44,915 nucleotides of DNA from a virus. This document shows positions 3,428 to 41,090 of this stretch, in pieces. The stretch covers positions 1,473 to 46,387 of IMG/VR virus record IMGVR_UViG_3300008119_000008; one strand, written 5' to 3'. The first letter of the stretch is position 1, and each line of letters begins with the position of its first letter. The position numbers and the translations under genes are program-made. The notes below the pieces were generated by a model. It saw only the letters and a list, made by a program, of their open reading frames with translations, searched no databases and was not told the origin of the DNA.

Positions 3428-3456
3428 TTGACTTTTTAGATAATCTATATTATAAT
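3428..3456 (+). promoter_or_regulatory. Sigma70-type promoter TTGACT-N17-TATAAT
   Basis: The -35 hexamer TTGACT (3428-3433) and -10 hexamer TATAAT (3451-3456) are separated by 17 bp. The predicted start is near 3463. This leaves a short leader with an AGGAGA ribosome site (3465-3470) before the ATG at 3476. A host-polymerase early promoter fits a nucleotide-metabolism gene. Confidence 0.85.
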
Positions 3457-4129: not shown

Positions 4130-4411
4130 TATTTGAGAGCAGTTGGCACATACTGTTTTCAAATTGTTATGACGACAATTATCAAGATTACCGTCTATAT
4201 GAAATACTCTAAATACTTCTTTGTGAGTTGACTTAAACCCGCATTTATCGCATTGTGCCTTTATTTGATACCCTGCTCTAACCCAGCGGGGTATTCTATG
4301 ATTTAGTCCGTGAGACATACAGATTTCGCAGAGTTTTCTATAGTAAACTCTATCATTTTTTTTATAATTTACAGCTCTAGGTCGCTGTCCGCACTTACAA
4401 ATAGGTCTCAT
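4076..4411 (-). CDS. HNH-type zinc-binding protein, probable free-standing nuclease
   Basis: 111 residues. Cysteine pairs C5/C7, C28/C31, C54/C57 and C88/C91 are visible, and an HNH-like core H71-I-D73-G-N75 ... H81-N-N83 lies between the last two pairs. This arrangement is that of small HNH endonucleases often found between genes in T4-like phages. The start is supported by a late-type motif 5 nt upstream on the same strand. It is convergent with the dNMP kinase and overlaps its end. No intron signs are seen in the flanking genes, so it appears to be free-standing. Cleavage activity is inferred from the motif only. Confidence 0.7.
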   Translation of the reverse strand: MRPICKCGQRPRAVNYKKNDRVYYRKLCEICMSHGLNHRIPRWVRAGYQIKAQCDKCGFKSTHKEVFRVFHIDGNLDNCRHNNLKTVCANCSQILAKSGVTWRQGDLIADY

Positions 4412-31418: not shown

Positions 31419-31447
31419 TTGACATATAGAAGTTTATGTGTTATTAT
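31419..31447 (+). promoter_or_regulatory. Sigma70-type promoter TTGACA-N17-TATTAT, 5 nt before ATG
   Basis: Perfect -35 TTGACA (31419-31424), optimal 17 bp spacer, TATTAT (31442-31447), then ATAGT and the ATG at 31453. The transcription start should fall at the start codon. No ribosome site exists in front of it. It begins 4 nt after the preceding stop codon. Confidence 0.85.
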
Positions 31448-31452
31448 ATAGT

Positions 31453-36592: not shown

Positions 36593-37167
36593 TGCCAGAC
36601 ATCGATATTGACTTTGTTGATAGAGAAGCCGCACTTAAATTATTTGAATATACAACTGCAAGTCGTCTTGAAAATAATAATCTAGTGAAACACAATACCG
36701 GAGTCTATCTACACGATGTTCCAGTAGATCCGATCACTGGATTATGTTCTATCCCATATGACCAAGCAGAGGATAAGTTTTTTAAAATAGACTTTCTTAA
36801 TGTTGGGATTTATAAAGGTGTTCGAGATGAGGCACACTTAACACAACTAATGGGGACTGAACCACTATGGGATCTACTAGAACAAGACGACTTTAGCAAC
36901 TTGCTATTTCATGTGAATGGACATGGGTCTATCTTAAAACAAACAAAGCCGCAGAGTGTGGAACAATTAGCGGCAGTACTTGCAATGATTCGTCCCGCCA
37001 AGCGTTACTTGATAGGAAAAGGATGGAACGAAATCAATTCAGAGGTGTGGGTAAAGCCTATAAACGATGACTATTTCTTTAAGAAAAGTCATGCTACTGC
37101 ATATGCTGTAGCCATTGTAGTACAAATGAATTTAATTTGCGAAAATATTAGTTATGGGTTTAGTTAA
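36592..37167 (+). CDS. Condensed DnaE/PolIII-alpha-like protein
   Basis: 191 residues. It strings together, in order, four motifs of bacterial C-family polymerases: PDIDIDF at residues 2-8 (PDxDxDF catalytic motif), FFKIDFLNV at 63-71 (the KxDFLGL motif that supplies the third catalytic Asp), SVEQLAAVLAMIRP at 122-135 (like the FEDLIALVALYRPGP segment) and FFKKSHATAYAVAIVVQ at 162-178 (like GFNKSHSxAYALxSYQ). A bacterial DnaE has more than 1000 residues, so most of the enzyme is absent. I have met similar small proteins in marine T4-like phages. Activity is unknown; a regulatory or decoy role is possible. Confidence 0.7.
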   Translation: MPDIDIDFVDREAALKLFEYTTASRLENNNLVKHNTGVYLHDVPVDPITGLCSIPYDQAEDKFFKIDFLNVGIYKGVRDEAHLTQLMGTEPLWDLLEQDDFSNLLFHVNGHGSILKQTKPQSVEQLAAVLAMIRPAKRYLIGKGWNEINSEVWVKPINDDYFFKKSHATAYAVAIVVQMNLICENISYGFS

Positions 37168-37535
37168 GTTGCTTTTCTAACTAGCGTAATAGATTTTCGT
37201 TTAATTCTTTTTGTTATAATATCATTTAAACTTGTGCATGGGCCTAATACAAGTCTAACATCTTTAGTTGAAAAATTCTTAATTGCGTATCTAAACTCAA
37301 AAATTTCTCTAGATAAAAATATATTAATGGGGATTTGCCTATTTGATTCCCACCACCAAGCTTCTCCTAATTCTAAAAACTTGGCTTTTTCTGGATCTGT
37401 TTTAATAGAAGCATAATCATAAAGGCTAGTTATTGCGGCATCTTGATTGATGATAATACCCACGTATTCTTGGCTAACGTGAGTGATAACGCTAATAAAC
37501 GGAAAATTTTCTTGTAGGTTTTCTGTAATTCTCAT
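37164..37535 (-). CDS. Conserved hypothetical protein, minus strand
   Basis: 123 residues from ATG 37535 (MRITENLQENFPFISVITHV). The longer open frame upstream overlaps the plus-strand structural gene and looks non-coding. Residues ~10-100 include QEYVGIIINQDAAITSLYDYASI, LELGEAWWWESNRQIPINIFL and FRYAIKNFSTKDVRLVLGPCTSL; the end is very basic (KRIKRKSITLVRKAT). I recognise the pattern from T4-like marine phages, but the function is unknown. A basic end and late-type neighbours would suit a nucleic-acid-binding role. Confidence 0.72.
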   Translation of the reverse strand: MRITENLQENFPFISVITHVSQEYVGIIINQDAAITSLYDYASIKTDPEKAKFLELGEAWWWESNRQIPINIFLSREIFEFRYAIKNFSTKDVRLVLGPCTSLNDIITKRIKRKSITLVRKAT

Positions 37536-37543
37536 ACTAAATA
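37536..37543 (+). promoter_or_regulatory. Late promoter motif ACTAAATA with leader
   Basis: ACTAAATA lies 21 nt before the ATG at 37565, with a TAAAGGG ribosome-like element between. It overlaps the divergent minus-strand start at 37535. Confidence 0.6.
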
Positions 37544-37564
37544 TATTAAAGGGTCGACAAATGT

Positions 37565-38359
37565 ATGCAACTAATTCCAGTTTATTTATATCCAAACAAG
37601 GTCGACGTCTACACAAATGTCCCTGGGACATGGACCACGGAGAGGTATCGAAAAGTGTATAATCGAACTGTAAAGCTGTTTCGTGGTGCCGATAACCGTG
37701 TTGATATTCAGATAAGAAACTCTGACGAAAAAGCATTAAATGTAACCGGCTCCACAGTATCATTTAGCCTTATTAGGTACAGCAACCAAAGTTTAGTGGT
37801 TACAAAAACTTGCACACCTATTGATATAACCAAAGGTAGATTTTACGTAACTATTACCGAACAAGAACTGTATGATATCAACAATGGGTTTTATCAATAC
37901 TCGGTCTACAAAGAAACTCCAACAGGAGTAAAAACTCCATTATATATTGATAGTCAGTATGGTGCTGTAGCTAACATCGAAGTTGTAGGCGACATAAAAG
38001 GTAATTTGCAACCGAGCCTTGATATAATCGAGTTTGCTGAATATAACCCCGGTGTGTTTGGAGAAATTGGTAATATATTTTTTACTAGCAGTCTAATAGA
38101 TACAAATTATGAATCAGAAGTTAGTAACAGTACACATACATTTGCGTTTTATTCAACAGGATATACTGGATCGGTAAAGATACAAGCAAGTTTAGACGAA
38201 AGTGCTGCACCTAATAATTGGACAACAATTACTACAATTTCGATCAATAATGACCCGTTGACGTATTCAAACGTTATCGGCAAATGGAAATGGTTTCGAA
38301 TTGTGCATACTCCGGTAACTAATTCTACCGGAAAGTTTGACAAAATAACGTATAGATAG
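37565..38359 (+). CDS. Probable beta-rich virion structural protein
   Basis: 264 residues. Sequence is rich in Thr, Ser, Val, Tyr and Asn with alternating hydrophobic residues typical of beta sandwiches (VKLFRGADNRVDIQIRNSDE, GSTVSFSLIRYSNQSLVVTK, GRFYVTITEQELYDINNGFY). The N-terminal half resembles the beta-sandwich of phage baseplate or fibre-attachment proteins. The C-terminal half (HTFAFYSTGYTGSVKIQASLD, WTTITTISINND, KWKWFRIVHTP) looks like a second such domain. A late promoter fits. It is isolated among replication genes. An exact name such as a short-fibre or baseplate wedge protein is not supported. Confidence 0.65.
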   Translation: MQLIPVYLYPNKVDVYTNVPGTWTTERYRKVYNRTVKLFRGADNRVDIQIRNSDEKALNVTGSTVSFSLIRYSNQSLVVTKTCTPIDITKGRFYVTITEQELYDINNGFYQYSVYKETPTGVKTPLYIDSQYGAVANIEVVGDIKGNLQPSLDIIEFAEYNPGVFGEIGNIFFTSSLIDTNYESEVSNSTHTFAFYSTGYTGSVKIQASLDESAAPNNWTTITTISINNDPLTYSNVIGKWKWFRIVHTPVTNSTGKFDKITYR

Positions 38360-38365
38360 TATACT
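38337..38365 (+). promoter_or_regulatory. Sigma70-type promoter TTGACA-N17-TATACT, 6 nt before the primase ATG
   Basis: Perfect TTGACA (38337-38342), 17 bp, TATACT (38360-38365), AGTGCT, ATG at 38372. Standard promoter geometry puts +1 exactly on the A of the start codon. The promoter lies within the 3' end of the upstream gene, whose TAG (38357-38359) is in the spacer. Confidence 0.88.
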
Positions 38366-38371
38366 AGTGCT

Positions 38372-39388
38372 ATGGCCCTAGTCGTAGACACTTTTCGTAA
38401 ACTAATACCTCCCCGTGCTAAGTCGAGCCCTAGCGGATGGATCAGTTTTAATGCCCCATGTTGCAGTCATCGTGGACATAGTTCAGATACTCGTAAACGT
38501 GGCGGGCTTATGGTTGGCGATTCAATTGTATTCAATTGCTTTAATTGTAAATTTTCTACAGGGTGGAAGCCTGGGTCGTCACTAACTACTAAATTTAAAA
38601 ATTTGTGTAAGTGGTTAGGAGCATCAGACGACGATATCAAGCACATGATATTCGATGCTATGAAAACCGAATCCGTTGACTATGTGCCTACAGAATCAAA
38701 AGAACTTGTAATATTCACGAAAAAAGAATTGCCGCCAGGCTCATTGCCTATTAAAGAATGGGCTAATCGATCATCATCATTATTAACTGAACTAGGTCCA
38801 GTATTAGAATATCTTGTTGATAGAGGGTTTGATCCAGCTGCCAATAATTTTTATTGGAGTCCTGAACCAGGATATTCTGATAGAGTTATCATTCCGTTTT
38901 TCTATAACGGAGAAATTGTTGGCAATACTGCAAGAAAAGTTCGTAACGGCAAACCAAAATATTTGTCAGATCAACATCCGTTTTTTGTGTTCAATGTTGA
39001 CGAGCAAACAGAAGAAAAAAAATATGTATTTGTTTGTGAAGGCCCGTTTGATGCATTATCAATCGGAGGTGTTGCACTTCTCACTAATGAAATCTCTTCG
39101 CAGCAGGCCCGCATAATTAATAATATAGGATGTGAAGTTATTGTGATCCCAGATCAAGATATTCCAGGACTGGTATTGATTGATCAAGCAAAAGAATTAG
39201 GATGGAAGGTAGCATTCCCCACGTGGGACAATGATACTAAAGATTGTGCAGATGCTGTACAAAAATATGGAAAATTATTTGTTATTGTGGATGCTATAAA
39301 AACAGCCACTAACAATCCTGCTAAAATAGAAATTGAAAAAAGAAAACTTCGAGATAAGTTTGAATATATGGAGAATCAACATGGTTAA
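38372..39388 (+). CDS. 61: DNA primase gp61-like
   Basis: 338 residues (T4 gp61 is 342). The N-terminal zinc ribbon shows C30-C31-x-H33...H36 and F-N-C56-F-N-C59. The TOPRIM core has VCEGPFDALSIGG near residue 222 and VIPDQDIPG near 258, providing the Glu and Asp pair for metal. It makes the RNA pentamers that prime lagging-strand synthesis with gp41. The start sits at the predicted +1 of its promoter. The 3' end overlaps a 38-residue gene by 8 nt. gp41 lies three genes downstream. Confidence 0.92.
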   Translation: MALVVDTFRKLIPPRAKSSPSGWISFNAPCCSHRGHSSDTRKRGGLMVGDSIVFNCFNCKFSTGWKPGSSLTTKFKNLCKWLGASDDDIKHMIFDAMKTESVDYVPTESKELVIFTKKELPPGSLPIKEWANRSSSLLTELGPVLEYLVDRGFDPAANNFYWSPEPGYSDRVIIPFFYNGEIVGNTARKVRNGKPKYLSDQHPFFVFNVDEQTEEKKYVFVCEGPFDALSIGGVALLTNEISSQQARIINNIGCEVIVIPDQDIPGLVLIDQAKELGWKVAFPTWDNDTKDCADAVQKYGKLFVIVDAIKTATNNPAKIEIEKRKLRDKFEYMENQHG

Positions 39389-39497: not shown

Positions 39498-40435
39498 TTG
39501 AGTGGGGGGTGAATGCCCTTAATCACGGTTCTAGTCTAGCTGTATTCAAGGACGGTAGTCTATGGTCCAACCAAGCGGGCTCTTCGGACGAGTTAGACAG
39601 CAAAATAATTACCGATGCCCTGCATGTTGGAGCACCGGATCGTATCTTTTGGTACGAACGTCCCTGGATAAAGAAGGCAAGACAACTACGTGCAGGCCAA
39701 TGGCATCGTGTCTTAGACATGTCCGTACTTCCACGCAAATACATGAAAGCGCAACATTATGCTCCGATCACTTATACTCCGCATCATGCTAGCCATGCAG
39801 CCGCAGGCTACTATACCAGTCCTTTTAATCATTGTGCTATTGTGGTACTCGACGCCATAGGTGAGTTTGAATGTGCTACCATATGGGAAGGCAAGCAAGG
39901 AGAAATGCGCAAAGTGTGGAGTAGAAGCTATCCAAATAGTTTAGGATTATTTTACAGTGCATTTACACACGCTCTCGGAATGACTCCTATTCAAGATGAA
40001 TATCAGTTACAACAAATGTCTGAAAAAGGCAATCCTAAAATTTTTTATTACAAAGTAAAGAAATATTTTACAGGTCTTTTAGAATTGAATTATAATTTTC
40101 ACAAAGGTGTTAATGATCAAAAATTCTACATAGATAGCATAGAAGACGAATGCAATCTTGCTGCCGCTGTTCAATTAGTGTTTGAAGAACAAATTGCATT
40201 GATTATGAATAAGGCAAAAGAACTAACTAATTCAGATTGTTTAGTATACATGGGTGGATGTGCAATGAACAGCAAGGCAAATAAAAAAATTGTAGAGCCC
40301 ATGTTTGAGTATCGTTGGTCATTGCCTAATCCAGGAGACCCTAGCAGTAGTATTGGAGCAGTATTGTATCACACTAAACAAAGAGAGCAAAAATACAACT
40401 TTGGTGTTGCAAAACATATAGAGATTCGTGTATAA
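39494..40435 (+). CDS. Carbamoyltransferase N-terminal (Kae1-like) domain protein
   Basis: 313 residues. Motifs of the NodU/CmcH/TobZ family N-domain are present: NHGSSLAVF near residue 10, H97-H98-x2-H101 in PHHASHAAAGYY (metal-binding), VLDAIGEFECATIW, and CAMNSKAN and PGDPSSSIGAVLYH near the end. Full enzymes have about 570 residues with a C-terminal YrdC-like domain that makes carbamoyl-adenylate; this one stops after the Kae1-like domain. It might use carbamoyl-AMP made elsewhere or have another substrate. It is placed between primase and helicase genes by ATGA overlap. Confidence 0.8.
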   Translation: MIEWGVNALNHGSSLAVFKDGSLWSNQAGSSDELDSKIITDALHVGAPDRIFWYERPWIKKARQLRAGQWHRVLDMSVLPRKYMKAQHYAPITYTPHHASHAAAGYYTSPFNHCAIVVLDAIGEFECATIWEGKQGEMRKVWSRSYPNSLGLFYSAFTHALGMTPIQDEYQLQQMSEKGNPKIFYYKVKKYFTGLLELNYNFHKGVNDQKFYIDSIEDECNLAAAVQLVFEEQIALIMNKAKELTNSDCLVYMGGCAMNSKANKKIVEPMFEYRWSLPNPGDPSSSIGAVLYHTKQREQKYNFGVAKHIEIRV

Positions 40436-40436
40436 T
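40407..40436 (+). promoter_or_regulatory. Sigma70-type promoter TTGCAA-N18-TATAAT, 6 nt before ATG
   Basis: TTGCAA (40407-40412), 18 bp, TATAAT (40431-40436), AAAAGT, ATG at 40443. Predicted +1 is the A of the start codon. It lies within the end of the upstream gene. Confidence 0.75.
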
Positions 40437-40442
40437 AAAAGT

Positions 40443-41090
40443 ATGCAGAATCACAAGCACAATAAAAAATATCAAGTAGGGGATCAGTGGTTAATTGACA
40501 CGCAGTACACTAGATACAAAGAGTTTCTTCCATTCTTAGATCGTGATTCAAGTGAAGACTATGGTCGTGAAACTGTAGCCCAACATGCTAGTCAGTACCC
40601 GTTATGGCACGATCCGGATCAAAGTGTAATGTTGGCATACCCAAAGAAGTACGGTGGAGACTTTGAAGCACATCCGTTGTGGCATACAGTAGCAGATGGT
40701 GCTTATAAGTGGACTAACCGAAAATTAAAAGAGAATGGGATTGAATCTGAGATCCGACCAGTAATTAGTTGGTATATTGATTACAAAGAAGGTGGTTGGC
40801 AACCAATGCACACTCATTCTAAGAACTGTGTAACACAGATTATCTACATGGATGCACAGACTCATAGTGTTAAAGTTAACGAAGCCAATGTACCAGAATT
40901 TGATGGTAAGGAAGCACAATGGGGTTCAATGTTTGCATTAATGGCCAGTAAGGATGAAACAAAATACGTGTCTTTCATGAATTGGCCTGGAAGATGTGTT
41001 TTAATGAGAGGCGATATATTCCACGGTGTGTATCCTGTTAAATCAGTACCACGTAGAAGTATTATTATTGATTATATAATTTTAACATGA
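40443..41090 (+). CDS. 2OG-Fe(II) oxygenase-like protein
   Basis: 215 residues from ATG 40443 (MQNHKHNKK), chosen because the promoter geometry puts +1 there; ATG 40428 is inside the upstream gene. H123-x-H125 (PMHTHS), H194 (IFHGVYPV) and R204-R205 (PRRSIIID) match the metal-His and 2-oxoglutarate-binding Arg order of the small phage 2OG-Fe(II) enzymes, with HxH in place of the common HxD. Such enzymes hydroxylate or demethylate nucleic acids, proteins or small molecules. The substrate is unknown. It sits just before helicase gp41 (ATGA overlap). Confidence 0.62.
   Translation: MQNHKHNKKYQVGDQWLIDTQYTRYKEFLPFLDRDSSEDYGRETVAQHASQYPLWHDPDQSVMLAYPKKYGGDFEAHPLWHTVADGAYKWTNRKLKENGIESEIRPVISWYIDYKEGGWQPMHTHSKNCVTQIIYMDAQTHSVKVNEANVPEFDGKEAQWGSMFALMASKDETKYVSFMNWPGRCVLMRGDIFHGVYPVKSVPRRSIIIDYIILT

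Follow-up and report, generated by a model that had tools for sequence, protein, structure and literature searches.

The DNA primase gene of an uncultured jumbo-phage relative recorded in IMG/VR (IMGVR_UViG_3300008119_000008) appears to be served by a host sigma70-type promoter placed so that transcription would yield a leaderless mRNA, a reading to which we assign a probability of about 0.85 and within which the exact +1, the use of sigma70, the timing and the translation route are the parts that we infer. The window analysed is a 44,915-nucleotide stretch (positions 1,473 to 46,387) of this 46.4-kb virus record. Some bacteria and a few phages are already known to make leaderless mRNAs, a rare design; new relative to those systems is a near-consensus sigma70 promoter on replication genes, with a geometry conserved over a large group of jumbo-phage relatives.

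Layout of the primase promoter in the window

Read along the + strand, the promoter consists of a -35 element TTGACA (38337-38342), a 17-nt spacer (38343-38359), a -10 element TATACT (38360-38365) and a 6-nt discriminator AGTGCT (38366-38371, with T at -1) that leads into the primase ATG at 38372, letter for letter the string reported by the first-pass annotation. It carries 11 of the 12 consensus hexamer letters, its spacer falls within the 16-18 nt of sigma70-type promoters, both hexamers are kept in relatives, and no Shine-Dalgarno (SD) sequence precedes the ATG at 38372, which is the first in-frame start codon past the upstream stop. The same annotation called this promoter perfect, which is too strong because the -10 matches consensus at only 5 of 6 positions, and described it as wholly hidden in the end of the upstream gene, which holds for the -35 and the spacer; the -10 lies outside, in the 12-nt gap between the genes, since the upstream stop codon TAG (38357-38359) directly precedes it. 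That upstream gene (37565..38359, + strand) encodes a BppU_N-like virion structural protein whose C-terminus, GKFDKITYR, carries the -35 in its last codons (AAG TTT GAC AAA), and the spacer includes the end of the gene.

The primase itself (338 aa, 38372..39388, + strand) matches PHROG 47 (E=1.5e-35), and the closest named-phage primases by tblastn are those of jumbo phages, PA5oct, Phosso and Atu_ph07 among them. It belongs with the RaK2/PA5oct/121Q-type jumbo-phage primases, with 38% identity to that of PA5oct over 93% of the protein and the same neighbour genes; megablast of 15 kb against named phages gave no match. Relatives on GTDB contigs are spread over mixed marine MAG bins (SAR11, Verrucomicrobia, Methylophilaceae, even archaea), a placement that looks like binning noise. 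A small antisense gene (phrog_11637, 37164-37763, - strand) is flanked by a gene for a DNA polymerase fragment on one side and by the structural gene on the other, and a small reverse-strand gene is found at the corresponding place in the named jumbo relatives that were fetched with wide flanks.

Under the proposed mechanism, host RNA polymerase with the housekeeping sigma70 would bind TTGACA/TATACT (38337-38365) and begin transcription on the A of the ATG at 38372, a position about as far from the -10 as sigma70 start sites usually are. The 5'-terminal AUG of the resulting leaderless mRNA would then be recognised directly by the ribosome. Read-through transcripts from the structural gene would probably yield little primase because the ATG has no SD, and primase synthesis would thereby be tied to its own promoter. 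Compactness is a second plausible benefit, with promoter and start codon contained in ~36 nt, partly inside the neighbouring gene.

Conservation of the promoter and of its distance to the start codon

Two IMG/VR searches, with protein similarity as the sole criterion, supplied the relatives; the first yielded 80 loci with 40-100% identity to the primase of the window, and the second, run with a profile headed by another branch, likewise yielded 80. Removal of near copies left 115 non-redundant primase loci, down to ~40% protein identity, which were aligned on the start codon; a promoter qualified if it matched at least 9 of 12 letters. If a locus of the second set offered several possible start codons, we chose the start with the best promoter; most loci of that set had a single candidate. 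These loci share ancestry, so that the counts below overstate the number of independent events.

The first-pass annotation had suggested alignment across related phages with an eye to loss of the hexamers, and they are not lost: a qualifying promoter stands 5-7 nt before the start codon in 100 of 115 loci, against ~1.4 expected, since shuffled upstream sequences reach that score 1.2% of the time. A further 9 loci have such a promoter at 8-10 nt, and other distances account for almost none (0 at 11-13 nt, 1 at 14-16 nt, 3 at 2-4 nt); the promoter is weak in 6 relatives. The spacer is 17 nt in 46 of the 47 qualifying loci of the first set, and two relatives with GTG starts (L030, L033) also keep the promoter-to-start distance. 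A chance match in AT-rich DNA has next to no probability as an explanation: TATAAT-like words are indeed common at 38% GC, but the pattern TTGACA-N17-TATAAT-N6-ATG, with at most one mismatch in the -10, occurs once in the window and in none of 60 dinucleotide shuffles, and chance origin is refuted by the conservation among relatives. A leaderless mRNA predicts both a fixed distance from -10 to start and the absence of an SD, and at the level of sequence both hold over the 115 loci, none of which has an SD at the primase start.

A leader of 1-2 nt may occur, given that variation of this size is common in sigma70 start sites. A real promoter with a very short leader (1-4 nt) arising from such wobble, its translation still SD-independent, would account for the 9 loci with 8-10 nt between -10 and start (10 nt in L159 and L161), and in these few relatives the leader would be 1-4 nt. 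As a general account we consider it unlikely, given a modal distance of 6 nt and a preference for a pyrimidine followed by A at -1/+1. A pyrimidine occupies -1 in 84 of 115 primase loci, as against 206 of 417 other genes (p=7e-6, kinship ignored), an excess that fits initiation at the following A and hence the leaderless reading.

Because the -35 is coding in the window and the C-terminal peptide is conserved, the hexamers might instead be kept for encoding the upstream protein tail G-x-[VILF]-D-K-x-x-Y-R. Codon choice argues otherwise. At loci of the overlapping class, where the -35 lies inside the codons for G-x-[VILF]-D-K-[IV]-x-Y-R, the Asp codon at the shared -35 is GAC in 28 of 29 cases, against a background of 36.5% GAC across the long ORFs at these loci. 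All but one of the 29 preceding codons finish in TT (28/29), even though four different amino acids (Val, Ile, Leu, Phe) are encoded there. The -10, moreover, is outside the gene in the window. At loci of the non-overlapping class the upstream gene is shorter, often with the last letter of its stop at -36, and a non-coding TTGAC begins right behind the stop to form the -35; the intergenic region of such loci (e.g. L021, L035, L065) is exactly promoter-long. The promoter is wholly non-coding, at an unchanged distance, in L020, L021, L035, L037, L042, L068, L075 and others. Locus L021 has both versions, a new TTGACA in place and, 26 nt farther from the start codon, the old coding TTGACA, and elsewhere the old coding copy has drifted from TTGACA (ATC GAT in L035, GTA GAC in L065). 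Coding constraint as the cause of hexamer conservation, to which we give only a very small probability, is rejected by the codon choice and the non-coding promoters together. What selection has preserved, to judge from these synonymous choices and displaced promoters, is the DNA signal itself together with its spacing from the start codon, and the two -35 arrangements, shared and separate, form a natural experiment in which promoter and protein tail share DNA.

The same loci bear on whether the primase might be translated mainly from upstream read-through mRNA, by reinitiation after the TAG 12 nt upstream, with the promoter playing a minor part. Stop and start are close and in the same strand and frame, but the promoter-to-start distance stays constant among loci whose stop-to-start distance ranges from -12 to -51, and the upstream genes themselves differ between loci; we regard this route as quite improbable. 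Promoter and upstream gene overlap completely in many relatives, where the upstream TAA lies within a -10 of TAAAAT. In L058, L025, L056 and others this stop is read in frame as AGC TAA AAT and forms part of the primase -10.

Cultured jumbo phages and known leaderless systems

The Pseudomonas jumbo phage PA5oct (Wroclawvirus) has the same geometry at its primase, near position 145890 of record MK797984, TTGACA-N17-TATAAT-N6-GTG with 12 of 12 hexamer letters, differing in its GTG start; the annotated start lies 6 nt further upstream, abutting the -10. A leaderless primase mRNA is thus a clear prediction in a cultured phage, for which we found no transcription start site data in the literature. 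In the Salicola phage SCTP-2 (MF360958) the arrangement TTGACA-N16-TAGCAT-N6-ATG leads to a start that precedes the annotated one by 96 nt, and the annotation seems to be too late by that distance. The upstream start (L086:3001, annotated 3097) restores the conserved N-terminus. Gene and promoter callers built to require an SD site or an intergenic promoter will place such starts wrongly, as apparently happened at the SCTP-2 primase. RAS14 has TTGACG-N18-TACAAT followed by 7 nt and ATG, and phage X1 is a weaker case of a start-adjacent primase promoter.

Other jumbo phages differ. RaK2/121Q/GAP32-type phages share the homologous primase and the gene order structural gene - primase - helicase, and in RaK2, 121Q, GAP32, CBB, Munch and BF a -10-like site stands in the same gap (TATAAT, or TAGAAT in RaK2), but it is followed by a ~20-30 nt leader with an AAGGA-type SD. 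The primases of Atu_ph07, Phosso and a Vibrio phage also have an SD. On the primase tree the leaderless and SD-led states need only two changes, with deep branches poorly supported, and the boundary between the two is thinly sampled because IMG/VR searches with the PA5oct and 121Q primases gave one locus each.

Among known systems, lambda cI expressed from PRM resembles the predicted primase mRNA in being a phage message that starts at its AUG and is made by host sigma70 polymerase, but it is a single repressor gene with an activator-dependent promoter, neither a replication gene nor conserved over a large clade. Lambda is also named by Zheng et al. 2011 (PMC3160421), who define leaderless 'TA-led' genes by a TA-like -10 box ~12 bp before the start and no SD. 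By that published definition the primase is a leaderless gene as judged from its sequence, with the first T of its -10 at -12 and no SD. TA-led bacterial genes are cellular and often have a -10 only, whereas here a near-consensus -35 stands at exactly 17 nt as well, in phage genomes that also use SD-led genes. The -10-adjacent ORF design is common in Deinococcus-Thermus (PMC12340547), and the Thermus phage phiYS40 has leaderless middle and late mRNAs (reviewed in PMC3594737). The likeness to phiYS40 is that of a lytic phage with leaderless mRNAs, here predicted from the DNA; the differences are that phiYS40 uses them for middle and late genes in a thermophilic host from a phylum rich in leaderless genes, whereas in the jumbo-phage relatives it is replication genes that carry a sigma70-type promoter. 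In open papers, our search for leaderless transcription in jumbo or T4-like phages turned up phiYS40 and, beyond that, just a remark in the AR9 paper calling phage transcripts 'often leaderless', AR9 itself having leaders of 26-491 nt; in the same open literature we found no report that replication genes throughout jumbo-phage relatives follow leaderless mRNA as a conserved rule.

Other genes with start-adjacent promoters

The first-pass annotation stated that leaderless design extends beyond late promoters, and three further genes of the window with essentially the same -10 distance (all + strand) support this at the sequence level. The closest parallel is TTGACA-N17-TATTAT-ATAGT (31419..31452) before ATG 31453, the start of a 395-aa protein, whose geometry is kept in L095 (65% identity) and L097 (40% identity). 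A 2OG-Fe(II) oxygenase-like gene starting at ATG 40443 is preceded by TTGCAA-N18-TATAAT-AAAAGT (40407..40442), and the helicase ATG at 41087 by TATAAT-TTTAAC (41075..41086), a -10 only with a poor -35; helicases of related loci have a full promoter at the same place. Promoter-to-ATG distances across the fetched loci are two-peaked, with 79 at 5-7 nt (mostly primase), 3 at 8-18 nt and the rest at 19 nt and above. A conventional case also occurs in the window, TTGACT-N17-TATAAT at 3428 with an AGGAG leader and ATG 3476.

The T4-type late motif nATAAATA peaks 4-7 nt before ATG (mode 5; 37 counts over 447 genes), a placement that suggests late genes may be leaderless as well. Taking the two promoter types together, we lean slightly towards the view that in a large clade of jumbo-phage relatives leaderless mRNA is standard for replication genes (primase, helicase, others) and late genes, by way of host sigma70 and T4-type late promoters set exactly at start codons. 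The leaderless state may be the ancestral one, in which case RaK2-type and rhizobial phages would have acquired SD leaders afterwards. In ordinary mesophilic hosts, members of the clade may depend on leaderless translation or may steer it. Examples of the late motif in the window are at 2654, 8670, 14179 and 23650 (+ strand) and at 4411 (- strand), and further ones are found in loci L001-L080.
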